A stretch of 64,000 nt of DNA from positions 209,444-273,443 of the forward strand of contig LBMP01000002.1 of assembly GCA_001184205.1 (NCBI GenBank), given 5' to 3'. How positions within the stretch are numbered: position 1 is the stretch's first letter; each line of letters begins with the position of its first letter. Shown here one piece after another: positions 12,704 to 43,597 of the stretch. The stretch is from Desulfocarbo indianensis (GTDB taxonomy: Bacteria; Desulfobacterota; Desulfarculia; Desulfarculales; Desulfarculaceae). Below the pieces are notes generated by a model. That model was not told where the DNA came from. It saw only the letters and a list, made by a program, of their open reading frames with translations, and did no database searches. The position numbers and the translations under genes are program-made.

Positions 12704-14266
12704 ATGAAGGTTCCGGAGACCACAAAGGAGAAAATTGCCGAGCTGAAAAGGCGTGACGACGAGGCCAAGATGGGCGGCGGACAAGGCCGCATCGACGCCC
12801 AGCACGCCAAAGGCAAGATGACCGCCCGCGAACGCATCGAGGCGCTTTTGGACGAAGGCTCTTTTTCGGAGTTCGATCGCTTCGTGGTGCATCGCTGCAA
12901 TGATTTTGGCATGGAAAAAAGCAAGATTCCCGGCGACGGCGTGGTCACCGGCTACGGCACGGTCAATGGCCGGCCCTTGTTCGTGTTCAGCCAGGACTTC
13001 ACCGTCTTCGGCGGGTCCCTTTCCGGGCCCTTCGGTGAAAAAGTCTGCAAAGTAATGGACTTGGCGGTCAAGGCCGGGGCCCCCATCGTGGGGCTCAACG
13101 ATTCCGGCGGGGCCCGCATCCAGGAAGGCGTGGTGAGCCTGGGCTCCTACGGCGAGATATTCAGGCGCAACGTCCTCGCTTCCGGGGTGGTCCCCCAGAT
13201 AAGCGCCATCATGGGGCCCTGCGCCGGCGGCGCGGTGTATTCGCCGGCCATCACCGATTTCATTTTCATGGTAGACCAGACCTCCTACATGCACATCACC
13301 GGGCCCCAGGTCATCAAGACCGTGACCGGCGAGGACGTGACCAGCGAGACCCTGGGCGGAGCCAAGGTGCACAACACCAAAAGCGGCGTGGCCCAGTTCA
13401 TGTGCAACTCGGATGCCGAGTGTCTGGAGCAGGTCAGGAAGCTGTTGTCCTATCTGCCGCAGAACTGGGAGCAAAAGCCGCCCGAGCTGACCTGCGCCGA
13501 CAGCTCCGAGCGGGCGGACAAGGACCTGGATGATTTCATCCCGGACAGCTCCAAGGCCCCCTACAACATGAAACAGCTCATCAAGAAGGTGGTGGACAAG
13601 GGCAGCTTCTTCGAGCAGGCCAAGCATTTCGCCAAAAACATGATAACCGCCTTCGCCCGCCTGGGCGGCATGTCGGTGGGCATCGTGGCCAACAACCCCA
13701 TGCACCTGGCCGGCTGCCTGGATATCGACGCCTCCCGCAAGTGCTCGCGTTTCGTGCGCTTTTGCGATGCCTTCAACATCCCGGTGATCACCTTCGTGGA
13801 CGTGCCCGGCTTCCTGCCCGGCATCCACCAGGAATACGGCGGCATCATCACCCACGGCTCCAAGGTCATCTACGCCTATTGCGAGGCCACGGTGCCTTTG
13901 ATCACCGTGATCACCCGCAAGGCCTACGGCGGGGCCTACGACGTCATGGGCTCCAAACACCACGGCGCCGACGTGAACTTCGCCTTCCCCACCGCGGAAA
14001 TCGCGGTGATGGGCCCGGAAGGGGCGGTCAATATCATATTCCGCAAGGAGATCAACGAGGCCGAGGACAAGGCGGCGCGCCACAAGGAATTGGTGGATAA
14101 TTACCGGGCGCGCTTCGCCAGCCCCTATTACGCGGCGGAGCTGGGCTATGTCGACGAGATCATCATGCCCAGCCAGACCCGCAGCAAGGTGATCAGGGCG
14201 CTCAACGCCCTCAAGAACAAGCGCACCTTCCGACCGGTGCGCAGACATGGCAACGTACCTCTCTAA
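12704..14266 (+). CDS. mmdA: Methylmalonyl-CoA decarboxylase / propionyl-CoA carboxyltransferase subunit
   Basis: A 520-residue carboxyltransferase of the MmdA/PccB/12S family with two crotonase-like halves. The N-terminal half carries [26 protein letters not shown] and the oxyanion-loop [12 protein letters not shown]. The C-terminal half carries [12 protein letters not shown] and [14 protein letters not shown]. It moves CO2 between biotin and propionyl-CoA/methylmalonyl-CoA. Downstream mutase genes fix the pathway context. Net direction (decarboxylase, transcarboxylase or carboxylase) depends on partners not encoded here. GGGGAGGGA precedes the ATG. The 160-bp spacer downstream of the carrier contains a terminator, so mmdA is probably transcribed separately; a -10-like TACAAT (12655-12660) lacks a good -35. 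Confidence 0.9.
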
Positions 14267-14355
14267 ACCGTCTGGCCGGGCCCGGGGCTTTTCGCGCCGG
14301 GCCGATTGCTTTTCGCGCGCTGTTGCCCTAACCACGCAGAGCTAAAGGAGGAGCT

Positions 14356-16017
14356 ATGAGCAACTCCGAGTTTCAGGAAAAGCTGGCCAAGTGGCAAGCC
14401 AAGGTGGACAAGCTGCAGGCCAAGCATCCGGAGCGCAAGGAGCGATTCACCACCTTGAGCGGCCTGCCCGTGGACCGCTTGTATCTGCCCCCGGAGCCAG
14501 GGCCCGATTACGCGGCCAAGCTGGGCTTCCCCGGGGCTTACCCTTTCACCCGCGGGGTGCAGCCCACCATGTACCGGGGCCGCTTCTGGACCATGCGCCA
14601 ATACGCGGGCTTCGCCACGGCCAAGGAATCCAACCGCCGCTACCGTTATCTTTTGGAGCAGGGCCAGACCGGCCTTTCGGTGGCCTTTGACCTGCCCACC
14701 CAGATCGGCTACGACTCGGACCACGAGCTTTCCCGGGGCGAGGTGGGCAAGGTGGGCGTATCCATCAGCTCCCTGGCCGACATGGAGGTGCTCTTGGACC
14801 AGATTCCTCTGGACAAGGTCTCCACCTCCATGACCATCAACGCCCCGGCCGGCGTCCTGTTGGCCATGTACATCGCCGTGGGCGAAAAACAGGGCGTGGC
14901 CGCCAAGCAGCTGCGCGGCACCATCCAGAACGACATCCTGAAGGAATATTCCAGCCGGGGCACCTACATCTATCCGCCCAAGCCCTCCATGCGCATCATC
15001 ACCGACATCTTCGCCTATTGCGCCGGGGAGGTGCCCCAGTGGAACACCATCAGCATCAGCGGCTATCACATCCGCGAGGCCGGCTCCACCGCGGTGCAGG
15101 AGGTGGCCTTCACCCTGGCCAATGGACTGGCTTACGTTAAAGCGGCGGTGGACGCCGGGCTGAAGGTGGACGAGTTCGGCCCGCGCCTGAGCTTCTTCTT
15201 CAACGCCCATTCCGATTTCCTGGAGGAAGTGGCCAAATACCGCGCCGCCCGCCGCCTGTGGGCCCGGCTCATGAGGGAACGCTTCGGAGCGGCCGACCCC
15301 AAGAGCCTCATGGTGCGCTTTCACACCCAGACGGCGGGTTGCAGCCTCACCGCCCAGCAGCCCAAGAACAACATCGTGCGGGTGGCGTTCCAGGCCATGA
15401 GCGCGGTATTGGGCGGCACCCAGAGCCTGCATACCAATTCCATGGACGAGGCCCTGTGCCTGCCCACCCAGGAGGCGGTGACCATCGCCCTGCGCACCCA
15501 GCAGATAATCGCCTATGAATCCGGGGTCACCGAGACCATAGACCCCCTGGCCGGCTCCTATTACATCGAAAAGCTCACCGACGAGATCGAGAGCCAGGCC
15601 TACGACTACATCCAGAAGATCGACGAGATGGGCGGCGCGCCCGAGGCCATTGAAAACGGCTACGTGCAGCGCGAAATCCAGGAGGCGGCCTACGCCTATC
15701 AAAAGGCCGTGGAGAGCGGCGAGCGGGTGGTGGTGGGGGTCAACAAGTTCACCGCCAAGGCCGAGCCCCTGGGCGAGATTCTGCGGGTGGACCACGCCGT
15801 GCGCGAGGCCAGGGTCAAGGAATTGGCTCAGCTCAGGAGCCAGCGGAACAACCAAGCCGTGCAGGCCAACCTGGCCGCGCTGAAAAAAGCGGCCCAGGGC
15901 GATGAAAACCTGATGCCCAAGTTCCTGGACTGCGTACGGGTATACGCCACCCTGGGCGAGATCTGCGACACCTTGCGCGGGGTGTACGGCGAATACCAGG
16001 CGCCGTCGACCATATAG
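14356..16017 (+). CDS. Methylmalonyl-CoA mutase, large (catalytic) subunit
   Basis: A 553-residue TIM-barrel subunit of the B12-dependent acyl-CoA mutases, without the cobalamin-binding domain. Substrate-specifying residues can be read: Tyr83 in MRQYAGF and Arg201 in YSSRGTY correspond to Tyr89 and Arg207 of the Propionibacterium enzyme, both with the same offset of 6. Isobutyryl- and hydroxyisobutyryl-CoA mutases differ at these positions, so methylmalonyl-CoA is the expected substrate. It interconverts (R)-methylmalonyl-CoA and succinyl-CoA. AAAGGAGGAGC lies just before the ATG. The B12 subunit starts 21 bp downstream, indicating an operon. Confidence 0.94.
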
Positions 16018-16038
16018 GCGGGCGGGAGGAGGCATATC

Positions 16039-16440
16039 ATGCGCAAGATAAGAGTGCTGGCCGCCAAGCCCGGCTTGGACGGCCATGACCGGGGGGTGAA
16101 GGTCATCGCCGCGGCGCTGCGCGACGCCGGCATGGAGGTGATCTACACCGGCCTCAGGCAAACCGCTGAGCAGATCGTGAACGCGGCCATGCAGGAAGAC
16201 GCCGACGTGATCGCCATGAGCATCCTGTCCGGGGCCCACGAGTACATCTTCCCCAGGGTCATGGAGTTGATGCGCGAAAAGGGCCTGGACGACGTGCTGG
16301 TCATCGGAGGCGGCATCATTCCCGAGGAAGACGTGCCCGCCCTGAAGGCCGCCGGCATCGCCGAGGTTTTCGGGCCGGGCACCAATACCAAGGACATCGT
16401 GGAGTACATCAGGAACAACCTGAAGCGAAGCTTGAACTGA
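16039..16440 (+). CDS. Methylmalonyl-CoA mutase, cobalamin-binding subunit
   Basis: A 133-residue Rossmann-like B12-binding protein. The cobalt-ligating histidine is His16 in the DxHxxG motif ([16 protein letters not shown]), followed by MSILSGAH and [10 protein letters not shown], which contact the nucleotide tail. It forms the split enzyme with the large subunit encoded immediately upstream. GGGAGGAGG precedes the ATG. No epimerase or MeaB-type chaperone lies in this cluster. Confidence 0.95.
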
Positions 16441-38165: not shown

Positions 38166-39368
38166 CTAGCTTTCCTGCCGGTTCTTTAAAAAGCGTTCCA
38201 GTTCCTGCAAGGAGCGCACGGCCAGCTTGGCGGTGCTGCTGCCCTTTTTGGCTTCGGCCACGGCGGCGCGCAGGGAATTGCGCGCCTCCTCGTAGCGTTC
38301 CAATTGCAGGGCGCATTGGCCCGCCAGGAGGGCGTAACGGCCTTGGCCGTCCTTGAGCTTGGCCGCCCTGCAAAAGGCGTCCATGGCCGGGGCGTAGCGC
38401 CGGGCCTGTAAATGAATTTCGCCCAGGCGGGCCCAACGCTTGGCCGAGGGCGCGGCCCGCACGGCGGCCTGGGCGACCTCCAGGGCGGCTGGGAAATCGC
38501 GGGCCTCGATATAGACCATGGCCAGCAAGTCCAGATTCTTGGGCTCCGGCTTGGGGCCGAAGGCCCGGCGGTAGAACACCGCCGCCCTGGCCGGCGCGCC
38601 GGCGGCCAGGTGGAGCTCGGCCAGGCGGCGCCAGCTTTCGGTCTTGGGAGGCTCCAGGCCGTAAGCCACGCTTAGGGCCGCTGCCGCCGCGGCCGGGTCG
38701 TTCTTTTCCTGGCCGATCACGGCCAGCAAGCGCCAGAGGGCCGCGTCGCCCGGCTGGCCGGCCAGGAGGCGCTTCAGAACCGGTTCGGCCTGGGCCGGCT
38801 GCTTGAGCACCAGATAGGCCTGCACCAAGGCCTTCAGCCAGTCTTTCTTGGGCTTGGGCCTGTTGGCCAGCTCGACGAGCAGGGGCAACCCCTGTTTGGG
38901 CTGATCGGCCGCCAGGTATAGCGCCGCGGTTTCGTAGAGCAGTTGGTCGTCGGGCGGCTTGCTCAGATCATAGGCGCGGCGCATGAAGCCGGCGGCTTCC
39001 TTCAGTTTGCCCTGCTCGAAACGCACCACGGCCAGGTTGCGCCAAGCCGGGGAATAACAGGGATTCAATTCAGCGGCGCGTTGGAAATGGACGCCGGCCT
39101 TGTCGCGATGCTTCAGTTGAAAGGCCAGGACCCCCTGGGTGAAGGGCAAAAGATAGTGGTCTTCGTCCGGATTGTCCTTGGCGTATTTGTCCAATTCCTT
39201 GGCGGCTTGGGCCGTCTTGTTGGCGTCTATCAGTTTTTGGGCATTGAAAAGGGCGCTGTGCAGGCCCGGTCCGGGAGCGGTCTCCCGCGCGCCGGAGCAA
39301 TCTTGCGCCCATGCCGGCGGGATGGCCGCCAGCAGGCACAATACTATGGTCAGGCAGGCGATCCTCAT
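38166..39368 (-). CDS. Periplasmic TPR protein of the TonB operon
   Basis: A 400-residue protein with a signal peptide (to PPAWA) and an array of tetratricopeptide-like helical repeats across most of the rest (for example PCYSPAWRNLAVVRFEQGKL and DAALWRLLAVIGQEKNDPA). It ends the six-gene operon under the cobalamin riboswitch and overlaps tonB by 4 bp. TPR partners are known from TonB2-type systems of Vibrio (TtpC/Tpr type loci) and probably act as a periplasmic scaffold. Exact role unknown. Confidence 0.8.
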   Translation of the reverse strand: MRIACLTIVLCLLAAIPPAWAQDCSGARETAPGPGLHSALFNAQKLIDANKTAQAAKELDKYAKDNPDEDHYLLPFTQGVLAFQLKHRDKAGVHFQRAAELNPCYSPAWRNLAVVRFEQGKLKEAAGFMRRAYDLSKPPDDQLLYETAALYLAADQPKQGLPLLVELANRPKPKKDWLKALVQAYLVLKQPAQAEPVLKRLLAGQPGDAALWRLLAVIGQEKNDPAAAAAALSVAYGLEPPKTESWRRLAELHLAAGAPARAAVFYRRAFGPKPEPKNLDLLAMVYIEARDFPAALEVAQAAVRAAPSAKRWARLGEIHLQARRYAPAMDAFCRAAKLKDGQGRYALLAGQCALQLERYEEARNSLRAAVAEAKKGSSTAKLAVRSLQELERFLKNRQES

Positions 39369-40018
39369 CGGTCCTCCAATTTGAAGCGGATGGTGGTTTC
39401 CACCCAGGTTGCCACGGCCTGGCCGTCTTTGCGGCCGGGCTGAAAACGCCAGCGCGGCACGGTCCGCAGTACGGATTCCTCGAACACGCCGGGCGGCTGG
39501 GCCCCGGTGATCTCCAGGTGCTGCACTCTTCCCCTTTCGTCCACCAGGAAACGCACCTGCACCGCGCCCTCTATGCCCCGCCGGCGGGCGGTATAGGGAT
39601 AGGGAGGCGGCAACTGGGAAGCGATCATGGGCGCCCGGTCCACCTGGCCCAGTTCATAGCTCGTGGGGCCGGGCGCGGGCAGGGCCAGGCCCACGCCCAG
39701 GCGGGGGTTGAGTTCGTAATCCAGGCGGGGGCGCTCCAATTGCACCGGCGGAGTCTTCAGGGGATCGATCTCCATGCGGGAGATCTCCGGTTGCGGCGGC
39801 GGTTTTTCCGGCGGCGGCGGCTCCTCTTCCTCGGGCGGCGGCGGCGGCGGCGGCATGAACACCCGGATGGCGTTCAGGTCTCCCAGATCGCCCCGGTCGA
39901 GCTGGCGGGACAACAGCGACATGGAGCTGAAGATGATCAGGTTGATGCACACCGCTCCGGCCAGGGCCATGAGCCAGCGCTTCTGGCCGGAGGCGTTATG
40001 GAAAAAGGCCGCGCTCAC
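39365..40018 (-). CDS. tonB: TonB-family energy transducer
   Basis: A 217-residue protein. It has an N-terminal membrane anchor (about 16-36), a Pro/Glu-rich periplasm-spanning stretch with seven consecutive prolines, and a C-terminal TonB domain (PPPYPYTARRRGIEGAVQVR; VLRTVPRWRFQPG). It transmits proton-motive energy from ExbB/ExbD to outer-membrane receptors. It overlaps exbD and the TPR gene by 4 bp each. Confidence 0.92.
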   Translation of the reverse strand: MSAAFFHNASGQKRWLMALAGAVCINLIIFSSMSLLSRQLDRGDLGDLNAIRVFMPPPPPPPEEEEPPPPEKPPPQPEISRMEIDPLKTPPVQLERPRLDYELNPRLGVGLALPAPGPTSYELGQVDRAPMIASQLPPPYPYTARRRGIEGAVQVRFLVDERGRVQHLEITGAQPPGVFEESVLRTVPRWRFQPGRKDGQAVATWVETTIRFKLEDR

Positions 40019-40443
40019 GAGCTGGGCCTCTTGGCCGCCACGGCCACGTCGCGGGCTCCGGCCAGGCGGGCCTGGTCCAGCACCTCGATAACCCTGCCGG
40101 TGGCGCTGGCGCGGTCAGCCACGATGACCACCGCCCCCTTGGGGTCCTCGGCCAGGAAGCGTTCCACCAGGCCGCGCACGCTGCGCAGATCAACCTGGCG
40201 GTGGTCTATGAACAAGGCGCCGTCGGCGCGGACTCCCACCATGAGGGCGCCCTTTTCCTTGGACTGGGCCGTGGAGGCCAGGGGCCGGTCCACCTTGACC
40301 CCGGATTCCCGCACGAAACTGGTGGTCACCAAAAAGAAGATGAGCAGGATGAACACCATGTCGATCAAGGGAGCCATGTTGATTTCCGGCTCCTCGCCGC
40401 CGGTGCGGTTGGCGGCCGAGAGCCTGCTTCTCAGACGGAGCAT
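40015..40443 (-). CDS. exbD: ExbD/TolR-family proton channel subunit
   Basis: A 142-residue protein with one membrane segment (about 28-44) containing the essential aspartate Asp28 in INMAPLIDMVF, then a periplasmic domain (DHRQVDLRSVRGLVERFL; VVIVADRASATGRVIEVLD). GGAGGTGAAGCC precedes ATG 40443, which overlaps the upstream exbB end by 13 bp. The frame stays open far upstream by GC bias, but that part is not coding. Confidence 0.93.
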   Translation of the reverse strand: MLRLRSRLSAANRTGGEEPEINMAPLIDMVFILLIFFLVTTSFVRESGVKVDRPLASTAQSKEKGALMVGVRADGALFIDHRQVDLRSVRGLVERFLAEDPKGAVVIVADRASATGRVIEVLDQARLAGARDVAVAAKRPSS

Positions 40444-41048
40444 GGCTTCACCTCCGATGACTTGAGCCAGCGGTCCAGGCCTTGCTGAAACGAGTTGAGG
40501 CCCTGCTGCATCTCGCGCACCTGGCGGCGCAGGAAATAGCCGGCGAACAAGCCGGGGATGGCCACCAGCAGCCCGGTCTGGGTGGTGATGAGGGCCTGGC
40601 TGATGCCGGCGGAAAGGGCCTGGGCGTTGCTGGTGCCGAAAAAGCGGATGACCTGAAAGGTGTCGATCATGCCGCTCACCGTGCCCAAGAGCCCCAGCAG
40701 CGGGGCCACCGCCGAAAGCACCAGTACCGTGTTCACGTGGCGCCAGAGCACGGGAGCCTGGCGCCGCACGGCCACTTCCCACCAGAGGAGATCGTTTTTG
40801 GTCCGGCCGCAGCGCAGGCCCATGAACACCGCCAGGGCCCGGCCGCGCGGCCCCCGCGGGCGCGGCAGCTTGCCGCTTTGCAGATGCTCCACCGCCTGGG
40901 GCAGATCCAGGCCTTCCCGGCCCGCTTCCCACAGCCAGAAGAGCTTGGCCAGCACCAGGGACCAGAGCCAGAGGGACAAGGCCATGAGCGGCCACATCAC
41001 CGGGCCGCCGGCTTGCACCAGTTCCCAGGCCTTGAACGCCCCGTTCAC
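40431..41048 (-). CDS. exbB: ExbB/TolQ-family proton channel subunit
   Basis: A 205-residue protein with an N-terminal membrane helix (VMWPLMALSLWLWSLVLAKLF) and the MotA/TolQ/ExbB core (VLSAVAPLLGLLGTVSGMID; ISQALITTQTGLLVAIPGL). With ExbD it forms the proton-driven motor for TonB. It is the second ExbB-like gene of the operon and lacks the periplasmic extension of its neighbour. Confidence 0.92.
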   Translation of the reverse strand: MNGAFKAWELVQAGGPVMWPLMALSLWLWSLVLAKLFWLWEAGREGLDLPQAVEHLQSGKLPRPRGPRGRALAVFMGLRCGRTKNDLLWWEVAVRRQAPVLWRHVNTVLVLSAVAPLLGLLGTVSGMIDTFQVIRFFGTSNAQALSAGISQALITTQTGLLVAIPGLFAGYFLRRQVREMQQGLNSFQQGLDRWLKSSEVKPCSV

Positions 41049-42445
41049 GACGCGCCTCCTTCTTCGGTCAGCGCCGCGCTCATGGCCACGGCCTTTTCCT
41101 CCATGTCGGAGGCGATGCGCTGGGCCTTGCGGGAGAGCAGGGAGGCGGCCACCAGCACCGGGATGGCCACGGCCAGGCCCAGCTGGGTGGTGATCAGGGC
41201 CTCGCTGATGCCGCCGGCCATGAGCCGGGGATCGCCGGTGCCGTGCACCGTGATGACCTGGAAGGTGTTTATCATGCCGGTGACCGTGCCCAATAGCCCC
41301 AGGAGCGGAGCCACGGCGGCCATCACCTTGAGCGCGGTGAGGTAGCGCTCCAAGCGGGGCAGCTCCTTGAGCATGGCCTCGGTCAGGCCGTTTTCGATGA
41401 CCTCGGCCGAATGGCCCCGCAAGGCCAGCCCCGCCTTTATGACGTTGCTGGTGGGGCGGCCGGGCTGGCTGTCGGCCACGGCCAGGGCGCCGCTGAAATC
41501 GCCGGCCTGCACCAAATCATTCACCCGGTTCATGAGCTGGTCGGTGTTGGCCCTGACCTGGCGCAGGAATCCCAGGCGCTCCACGATGAGCACCAGGGAG
41601 ATGAGGCCCACCAAGAGAATGGGCCACACCAGGGGACCGCCGGACAGGAGCTGCTCCCAGGCGCTCTCGGCCCGGGCCAGCTGCTTGAGGGCCGCGCCGC
41701 CGGTTATGTCCATGGGAGCCGCCTCGGCCTCGCCGGCCATATAGGCCCGCAAGCCGCGCCGCACTCCCCAATCCGGCTCGCCGCCCACCGCCAGCAGGCG
41801 GCCGGTGGCCGGGCCCAGCACCAGATAGCCGACTTCATCGCCGTTGTCGTAGGCCGCGGTGAAGGGCCCCAGGGTGAGGATTCTGCCCGAGGATTCCTGG
41901 CCCTCGCGGTCCACGAAGGGCCCCTGCCGCAGGGCTGATTGCCCGCTTTCCGCCAGATAGACGAAATACATTTCCATCAGGCGGCGGATGTCCTCCAGGC
42001 CGGGGAAGCGGCTCTTGTTGAGATAGGAGCGCAGGATTTCCAGGCGCTCCGGCTGGGCGGCGGTGGCCGGCGTGGTTTCGGCCAGGCTCAAGAGCTCGCG
42101 GGCGCTGGCCCGCACCAGACCGGCCAGCTCCTTGAGGTCGCCCGCTTCCTGGCTCAGGAGGCGGCTGAGCTCGGCCTTTTCCTGGCTCACTTTGCTGAGT
42201 TCCTGGCGGGCCCGGCCGAGGGCGGCCTTCTGGGCCGCCTCCTGGGCTTGCAGGGCCTTCAGTTCGGCCTGGAGCTTGGCGATGCGCTGGGAGCGCTGGG
42301 CCACTTCCTGGCCTTGCTCGCTCACGGCCGTTTTCAAGTCGGCCGCCACCTCTTTGGCCACCGCCGGGAAATCGGCCGCCCGGCCGGTTATGGGCATGAA
42401 CGCTAACGCCGCCATGAGCAAGGTGCTGAGCCATAACCGTTTCAT
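41045..42445 (-). CDS. ExbB-like protein with periplasmic coiled-coil extension (TtpC-like)
   Basis: A 466-residue protein. A signal peptide (to GRAAD) is followed by a coiled coil (about 25-120), a periplasmic domain, a membrane helix near 272-290 (LVWPILLVGLISLVLIVER) and the MotA/ExbB core (MAAVAPLLGLLGTVTGMIN; ISEALITTQLGLAVAIPVL). This layout matches the TtpC-type extra component of TonB2 systems. It overlaps DUF3450 and exbB by 4 bp. Confidence 0.88.
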   Translation of the reverse strand: MKRLWLSTLLMAALAFMPITGRAADFPAVAKEVAADLKTAVSEQGQEVAQRSQRIAKLQAELKALQAQEAAQKAALGRARQELSKVSQEKAELSRLLSQEAGDLKELAGLVRASARELLSLAETTPATAAQPERLEILRSYLNKSRFPGLEDIRRLMEMYFVYLAESGQSALRQGPFVDREGQESSGRILTLGPFTAAYDNGDEVGYLVLGPATGRLLAVGGEPDWGVRRGLRAYMAGEAEAAPMDITGGAALKQLARAESAWEQLLSGGPLVWPILLVGLISLVLIVERLGFLRQVRANTDQLMNRVNDLVQAGDFSGALAVADSQPGRPTSNVIKAGLALRGHSAEVIENGLTEAMLKELPRLERYLTALKVMAAVAPLLGLLGTVTGMINTFQVITVHGTGDPRLMAGGISEALITTQLGLAVAIPVLVAASLLSRKAQRIASDMEEKAVAMSAALTEEGGAS

Positions 42446-43230
42446 GGCTTGACCTCCCTTGCCGGCAATACCCCCAGGGGCACCTCGATCAAGGTGGCCA
42501 CCCGGTGGCGCTGGGCGATGTCCGCGGCCTGGTTCAATGCGCGGCTGTAATCATCCACCGGGCTGAAGGCCTTGGCTTGCCTGTCGTAGCGCCAGGCTTG
42601 GCGGCCGTCCGGGCTAATGGCGAAAAGCCCCAAACGGCCGAGCCGCAGCACGCGCACCCGCAGCTTGCGCCCGCTTATCTCCAGTTCCCGCTCCTCGGCC
42701 TGGGCGGTGGCCCCATAGCGGGCCTCGATCTCCAGGGCGGCCAAAAGCCGGCGGGTCTTGTCGGGCAGGGAAGCGTCGAAATTGTTCAAAAGGTTGCCCA
42801 GGGTGGTCAGGCGCTCCTCCCGTTCCGACACCAGAAAAGGCAGGTCCGCCGCCACGAAACCGGAAAGCTGGGCGAAAGTCTGATCTAAAAAAGGCTCCAA
42901 CTCGGCCCTGATGCGGGCCATTTCCTTTTGCTGGCGCTGCATCTCGGCCAGCTTCTGGCGCTGGTCCTTCAGGAAGGCCTCGGTCTTTTCCCGTTGCCGG
43001 GTGACCAGGGCCAGTTCGCGGCTCTGGGTTTCCACCGCCTGGGCCAGCTCGGCCTCCTGGGCGGCCAGGGTCTCCACTTTCTTTTGGGTTTGGACTCGCA
43101 CCTCCACCGCTTGCTCGGCCTGGCCGCGCACTTTTTCCGCGCTGGGAGACGTATCAACCGCCCCTGCGGCTCCGGCCAAAGCCAGGGCCGCGAAGGTGAT
43201 ACACAGGGCGTGAAGTAATTTTGCCAACAT
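42442..43230 (-). CDS. DUF3450-type periplasmic coiled-coil protein
   Basis: A 262-residue secreted protein with a signal peptide (to AGAVD) and a long coiled coil (about 35-110, QKKVETLAAQEAELAQAVET). The C-terminal domain shows LPDKTRRLLAALEIEARYG and YDRQAKAFSPVDDYSRALNQ, typical of DUF3450. It is the first gene behind the B12 riboswitch. DUF3450 proteins commonly precede TonB2-type ExbB genes; their molecular role is unknown. ATG 43230 was preferred to the adjacent TTG 43233. Confidence 0.85.
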   Translation of the reverse strand: MLAKLLHALCITFAALALAGAAGAVDTSPSAEKVRGQAEQAVEVRVQTQKKVETLAAQEAELAQAVETQSRELALVTRQREKTEAFLKDQRQKLAEMQRQQKEMARIRAELEPFLDQTFAQLSGFVAADLPFLVSEREERLTTLGNLLNNFDASLPDKTRRLLAALEIEARYGATAQAEERELEISGRKLRVRVLRLGRLGLFAISPDGRQAWRYDRQAKAFSPVDDYSRALNQAADIAQRHRVATLIEVPLGVLPAREVKP

Positions 43231-43267
43231 CAATGCTCTCTTTTCCGTTTCTCATGGGGGGCAGAAT

Positions 43268-43297
43268 AAAAAACCCCAGACCACATTAGGTCTGGGG
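43268..43297 (-). terminator. Intrinsic terminator in the cobalamin riboswitch leader
   Basis: On the minus strand, CCCCAGACC (43297-43289) pairs with GGTCTGGGG (43282-43274) around loop TAATGT and is followed by six T bases (43273-43268). It stands between the aptamer and the first gene, so it is the likely expression platform for B12-induced early termination. Confidence 0.88.
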
Positions 43298-43392
43298 GGA
43301 TTGCATCCCGCTTTCTTCATCTCCCAGAAACGGTCCACCCAAGGCGTTTATTTACGCCTCGCCGGTTCCTCGCCGGGGATAATGGACCATAT

Positions 43393-43562
43393 GCGACCGG
43401 CAGGTCTTCTGGCTTCCGGGTCGTCCTCGGGTCACGCCTTCCCGCTCCTACGGAGCAGTGGCTGGATTTTCATAATCCAGCAACCCTTGTCGCCGGTTAC
43501 AGCGGCGGGACCGCGACGGATTCACACCGTCTTCCCTATTAAGCCATCTCTGGCACCGATCT
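43393..43562 (-). promoter_or_regulatory. Cobalamin riboswitch
   Basis: Read on the minus strand it contains the class hallmarks in order: GATCGGTGCC at the 5' end, AATAGGGAA (near 43540-43532), GACGGTGTGAATCCGTCGC, CCCGCCGCTGTAACCGG, a variable hairpin arm, and GGAAGCCAGAAGACCTGCC at the 3' end. It is followed by an intrinsic terminator and the DUF3450-ExbB-TonB operon. Adenosylcobalamin binding is expected to switch the operon off when B12 is plentiful. Confidence 0.95.
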
Positions 43563-43568
43563 TTCTTC

Positions 43569-43597
43569 TCTTTAACCCCAGTCAGCATTATTGTCAA
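43569..43597 (-). promoter_or_regulatory. Promoter of the riboswitch-controlled operon
   Basis: On the minus strand, TTGACA (43597-43592), a 17-base spacer and TAAAGA (43574-43569). The expected start near 43562 coincides with the 5' end of the riboswitch. Confidence 0.65.

Follow-up and report, generated by a model that had tools for sequence, protein, structure and literature searches.

What does a vitamin B12 switch do in front of genes for an outer-membrane transport motor, and is that motor dedicated to corrinoids or shared with other cargoes? The question is raised by a stretch of 64,000 nucleotides from Desulfocarbo indianensis (assembly GCA_001184205.1, contig LBMP01000002.1; G000:C111:209444-273443 in our numbering, where G000 is this bacterium's genome), hereafter called the window. 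On its minus strand, six overlapping genes of a Ton system, encoding a DUF3450 protein, an extended ExbB, ExbB, ExbD, TonB and a tetratricopeptide repeat (TPR) protein, lie behind a cobalamin riboswitch and an intrinsic terminator. The usual view is that Ton motors are iron-regulated or general and that B12 riboswitches govern receptors and biosynthesis; here the switch sits on the motor itself. Our best explanation, which we consider quite probable, is a TonB2-type motor whose transcription is attenuated by cobalamin and which serves corrinoid receptors, but probably others too. What is new is a regulatory variant, a B12 riboswitch on a known motor type; the motor type itself is already known.

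The operon and its leader

An original prediction for this locus had described a B12 riboswitch, an intrinsic terminator and six overlapping genes without a receptor, and each of these elements was recovered. The aptamer matches RF00174 over the full model (1-189), far above the gathering score of 31.5; the gene products match Pfam families; all five junctions overlap, by 4, 4, 13, 4 and 4 bases; and no receptor gene lies within the operon. The predicted span, 38166-43597, is also right, running from the stop codon of the TPR gene to the -35 hexamer. Promoter, riboswitch and six genes are confirmed as an observation, and a chance arrangement is excluded. The features are as follows.

43569-43597, minus strand: promoter, with -35 TTGACA at 43597-43592, a spacer of 17 and -10 TAAAGA at 43574-43569
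43382-43575, minus strand: cobalamin riboswitch aptamer RF00174 (cmscan 117.2 bits, E 1e-28)
43294-43330, minus strand: candidate antiterminator, in which CTGGG and CCCAG pair across the terminator 5' arm
43268-43297, minus strand: intrinsic terminator, best of the region, with a 9 bp stem (43297-43274) and T6
42442-43233, minus strand: ttpB-like gene (DUF3450), 263 aa, PF11932 208.8 bits, 1e-61
41045-42445, minus strand: ttpC-like gene (extended ExbB), 466 aa, PF01618 116.5 bits, MotA_ExbB at residues 331-449
40431-41048, minus strand: exbB, PF01618 80.3 bits
40015-40443, minus strand: exbD, PF02472 100.9 bits
39365-40018, minus strand: tonB, PF03544 TonB_C 78.9 bits, with a proline-rich stretch
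38166-39368, minus strand: ttpD-like TPR gene, last in the operon, 400 aa, several TPR families, N-terminal signal-like sequence

The ttpB-like frame opens with TTG at 43233, directly followed by ATG at 43230, the likelier start. The promoter had also been predicted, and here one half is stronger than the other: the -35 hexamer is perfect, while the -10 hexamer matches its consensus at only 3/6 positions, which is why a consensus scan missed the promoter. Each of the four Desulfarculaceae leaders compared (that in the window, L051, L055 and L061) has TTGACA close upstream of its aptamer, and this recurrence supports the promoter.

The terminator reads CCCCAGACC-TAATGT-GGTCTGGGG-TTTTTT. When the leader was folded with its end cut before the terminator 3' arm, the CTGGG/CCCAG helix took up the 5' arm. 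Comparable candidate pairings are found in L051 (CTGGTGGGA/TCCCCCAG), L061 (GGGGA/TCCCC) and, at one truncation point only, L055 (CTGGGG/CCCCAG). A T-tailed terminator is clear in three of the four leaders, L055 having a weaker CAGCC/GGCTG hairpin before T7. An expression platform of terminator and competing antiterminator is therefore present by sequence and folding, with a predicted function; the compared leaders gave no confident assignment of a kissing-loop partner for the aptamer. By analogy with the RF00174 family, which suggests both direction and ligand, the layout would be that of a transcription-attenuating OFF switch. At high intracellular cobalamin, the bound aptamer would let the terminator form before ttpB, and little motor would be made. 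At low cobalamin, the CTGGG/CCCAG helix would form instead as the antiterminator, allowing RNA polymerase to read through into the motor genes.

A TonB2-type motor

The prediction of a TonB2-type system containing TtpC stands: the six genes encode a motor of a known type, placed under predicted B12 attenuation. The assignment rests on Pfam families, protein lengths and gene order, with the Vibrio proteins compared by description. The 466-aa protein has what we take to be the layout of Vibrio TtpC, an ExbB domain with a long N-terminal periplasmic extension: a TtpB-like periplasmic domain, whose DUF3450-like match is sub-threshold (PF11932, 29.5 bits), precedes the C-terminal ExbB/MotA channel domain. 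In Vibrio vulnificus, the TonB2 operon runs ttpB2-ttpC2-exbB2-exbD2-tonB2-ttpD2 (PMC6957404), the same six genes in the same order, with DUF3450 first, TPR last and no receptor; matching domains occur in proteins of similar length (TtpB2 255 aa against 263 aa here, TtpD2 425 aa against 400 aa here). The lack of a receptor is normal for Vibrio TonB2, as only the TonB3 operon carries one (PMC6957404); TonB3 shares the six-gene layout, but is headed by that receptor gene. On the other hand, V. vulnificus TonB2 is more strongly expressed when iron is limiting and has a possible Fur site, a place that a B12 riboswitch occupies in this sulfate reducer; near the operon the Fur consensus is matched at no more than 11/19 positions, and iron control is a regulatory trait that does not define the motor. 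Cobalamin riboswitches of btuB belong to the same aptamer family, RF00174, but control a receptor rather than a motor. What the DUF3450 and TPR proteins do in such systems had been called undescribed, which is incorrect, since TtpB2 and TtpD2 were found in 2019 to be essential for TonB2-mediated iron/siderophore uptake (PMC6957404).

For these two poorly understood components, the comparison of TtpB with TtpC offers a concrete model. Residues 30-223 of TtpB align with residues 29-218 of TtpC at 97% probability in a profile comparison (hhalign), and the predicted models of TtpB and of the TtpC N-terminus share an order of elements: a helix of about 99 residues, short helices, five strands and a helix. 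In the TtpB model, the long helix is joined to a C-terminal beta domain. Mean pLDDT of the models is 71 for TtpB and 82 for TtpC, with low pTM. No solved relative came out of a Foldseek search with the TtpB model (best E 0.13), and a profile search of the PDB yielded nothing beyond short, repeat-like hits, for the most part to designed propellers. Judged by its sequence profile, TtpB is a separate protein related to the periplasmic domain of TtpC, and this relatedness suggests that the two proteins probably pair. In the assembled motor, ExbB-ExbD and TtpC would draw on the proton-motive force to power TonB, and TonB would in turn open receptors; TtpB would probably sit with the periplasmic domain of TtpC, and TtpD may act as a TPR scaffold.

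The B12 regulon and recurrence in relatives

The prediction that the motor is regulated apart from its receptor was followed through the genome, and it holds: candidate receptors lie elsewhere under B12 riboswitches of their own. RF00174 has 16 matches in this genome (one weak, at 34 bits), against 25 receptor plug domains. Five riboswitches lie directly upstream of a same-strand plug domain, within 450 bases, and two more within 1.8 kb; others precede btuFCD-like genes (one site), a cbiK-led cobalamin operon with cob genes, and a ThiC-family gene. No receptor of the genome passes the cut-off set for NCBIfam's B12-receptor models, so the putative corrinoid substrate of these receptors is read from the riboswitch. 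As a regulatory link, the operon's probable connection with corrinoids is supported by this regulon, and the motor would be co-produced with corrinoid receptors and BtuFCD. The methylmalonyl-CoA mutase encoded in the window, a consumer of B12, likewise counts for a B12-switched motor; with a carboxyltransferase, its large and B12-binding subunits occupy 12704-16440 (plus strand), about 22 kb from the operon. The window also encodes an APS-reductase beta subunit, consistent with a sulfate reducer.

Three further riboswitches of the genome deserve separate mention. A 101-bit match at G000:C301:49208-49423 (minus strand; L021:1394-2947) is followed by a gene for an AMP-binding CoA ligase, an unusual target. 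Another, at G000:C312:106809-107000 (plus strand; L020:2113-3423), precedes the ThiC-family gene, possibly a BzaF-type lower-ligand synthase, ThiC and BzaF not being told apart here. The third, at G000:C111:608178-608368 (minus strand; L023), precedes a receptor near the NCBIfam FCYXU-motif family (672.6 bits, cut-off 825), and the next gene combines a signal-like N-terminus with tetrapyrrole methylase matches. Selenocysteine in this receptor (G000:C111:607 kb) was considered and dropped, as the frame is open without it.

The arrangement is shared by relatives. D. indianensis belongs to the same family as Desulfarculus baarsii, which we take genome G001 to be, and Dethiosulfatarculus (G011). 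A riboswitch directly precedes ttpB in the window, in these two genomes (94.5 and 85.8 bits) and in G019, a metagenome-assembled genome (87.1 bits), that is, in four genera. The four compared leaders share TTGACA, aptamer, candidate antiterminator and terminator. Sampling was confined to the phylum, one contig scan covering nine close relatives, and a strong DUF3450 match was found in 40 of the 297 genomes sampled from the wider phylum. Of the sampled loci scanned outside the family, four showed a riboswitch. In G088, one lies upstream on the same strand (45 bits). G106 (C10; L136:1612-7792) has the order riboswitch-cbiK-ttpB-ttpC-exbB-exbD-tonB-ttpD, with the cobaltochelatase-like gene inside the ton operon. 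In G056 and G247, the operon diverges from a riboswitch that precedes a receptor gene and, more distantly, a cobN-like gene. Within the family, the G019 operon falls on the ends of two contigs; its distal end faces, in convergent orientation, a receptor that is preceded by a weak riboswitch match and has a btuF-like gene next to it.

A B12 riboswitch on a ton operon was not found reported in the open-access literature; the B12-element catalogues of 2003-2004 lie outside that search, so a prior mention is possible. Ton genes have been met near cobalamin genes before. Plasmid pSZ77 of Geobacter lovleyi carries a cobN-exbB-exbD-tonB cluster with receptors, proposed to scavenge extracellular corrinoids (PMC3403914), and so resembles our locus in setting Ton genes amid cobalamin genes; it differs in being a four-gene cluster with cobN and receptors alongside, and the paper mentions no riboswitch, nor do its passages on the cluster name TtpB, TtpC or TtpD. 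Pelobacter carbinolicus has TonB-like genes beside a cobalamin outer-membrane channel and near outer-membrane channels adjoining cobalamin-responsive riboswitches, but these are receptor-linked, and no six-gene operon under its own switch is described (PMC3543383).

Which receptors does the motor serve?

The original prediction held the motor to be dedicated to corrinoid uptake. The corrinoid link stands, through the riboswitch regulon; the word dedicated is overstated, and the interpretation as a whole is partly supported. G001 (one contig), G011 and G019 each have two ExbD and two TonB_C matches, and of the TonB_C matches one is strong and the other weak. The counterparts of the weak TonB_C and its ExbD in the window's genome belong to a Tol-Pal-like cluster; as the relatives likewise show a weak TonB_C next to an ExbD, we assign their second pair to Tol-Pal as well. 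With that assignment, the riboswitch-controlled operon is the only Ton operon detected in these three genomes, against 20 receptors in G001, 40 in G011 and 2 in G019, where counts are less firm because the genome is 86% complete. Only 3-4 of the 20 receptors in G001 and 6-8 of the 40 in G011 stand behind a B12 riboswitch. As no Ton genes were found in these relatives outside the riboswitch-controlled operon, the motor is best read as B12-responsive and not corrinoid-only, probably serving corrinoid receptors, but not those alone.

Several observations weigh against the preferred explanation. The window's genome has a second six-gene ttpB-ttpD operon (G000:C290:103501-113300; L048), downstream of genes for a receptor, an ABC ATPase and a solute-binding protein; no riboswitch was found in the scanned locus, where a Fur-box search also gave nothing at 13/19. 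Genus g3 of the same family keeps a DUF3450-TtpC locus without a riboswitch in eight genomes, so that B12 control is not required to keep the motor. Riboswitch-bearing operons form no supported clade, and a single origin of B12 control is therefore not established; as the trees of TtpC and of the six concatenated genes lack resolution in their deep branches, they do not decide whether riboswitch control is ancestral.

How tightly the switch closes is a further question. It is a serious possibility, somewhat short of an even chance, that the operon encodes a general Ton motor whose basal read-through is high, the riboswitch only boosting output in B12 shortage and corrinoid import being the most demanding client. 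This is a sub-case of the B12-attenuated motor preferred here, differing in the tightness of the switch. The sole Ton genes of three relatives, most of whose receptors lack a B12 riboswitch, and the switch-free locus of g3 agree with it, whereas the strong terminator and candidate antiterminator suggest a sizeable dynamic range. Exclusive use for corrinoid receptors, all other cargoes being left to the second Ton operon, is improbable. The riboswitch-free C290 operon does have its own upstream receptor and ABC transporter, and at least five receptors have the same type of switch as the riboswitch-controlled operon; but a TonB and ExbD that are the sole ones besides Tol-Pal in G001 and G011 face 20 and 40 receptors, few of them switched, and Vibrio TonB2 serves many receptors (PMC6957404). 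Far less probable still is an operon for siderophore uptake with an incidental or non-functional riboswitch insertion: the TonB2 systems that have been characterised are under iron regulation and transport siderophores, but the switch here is intact and recurs in four genera with shared leader features, the best Fur consensus match near the operon reaches only 11/19, and cobalamin genes adjoin the ton operon in G019, G106, G056 and G247. That a Tol-Pal operon for envelope stability was mistaken for Ton is already contradicted, since the operon's ExbB and ExbD do score on the TolQ and TolR models but far below cut-off, TonB_C is clear, none of the Tol-Pal genes (TolB and Pal with TolQRA) is present, and a separate Tol-Pal-like cluster lies at G000:C1:603-610 kb (gene order read from sequence, with no family scan).

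For the cobalamin-attenuated TonB2-type motor, the wider consequence would reach beyond B12 import. In D. baarsii, Dethiosulfatarculus and the third relative, whose sole Ton motor would be repressed through a B12 riboswitch, intracellular cobalamin may gate all TonB-dependent uptake, including that of iron complexes, an idea that we put forward tentatively and consider rather less probable than its opposite. If true, the status of one vitamin would set the energy supply for outer-membrane import, and since D. baarsii is in culture, B12 gating is directly testable there.

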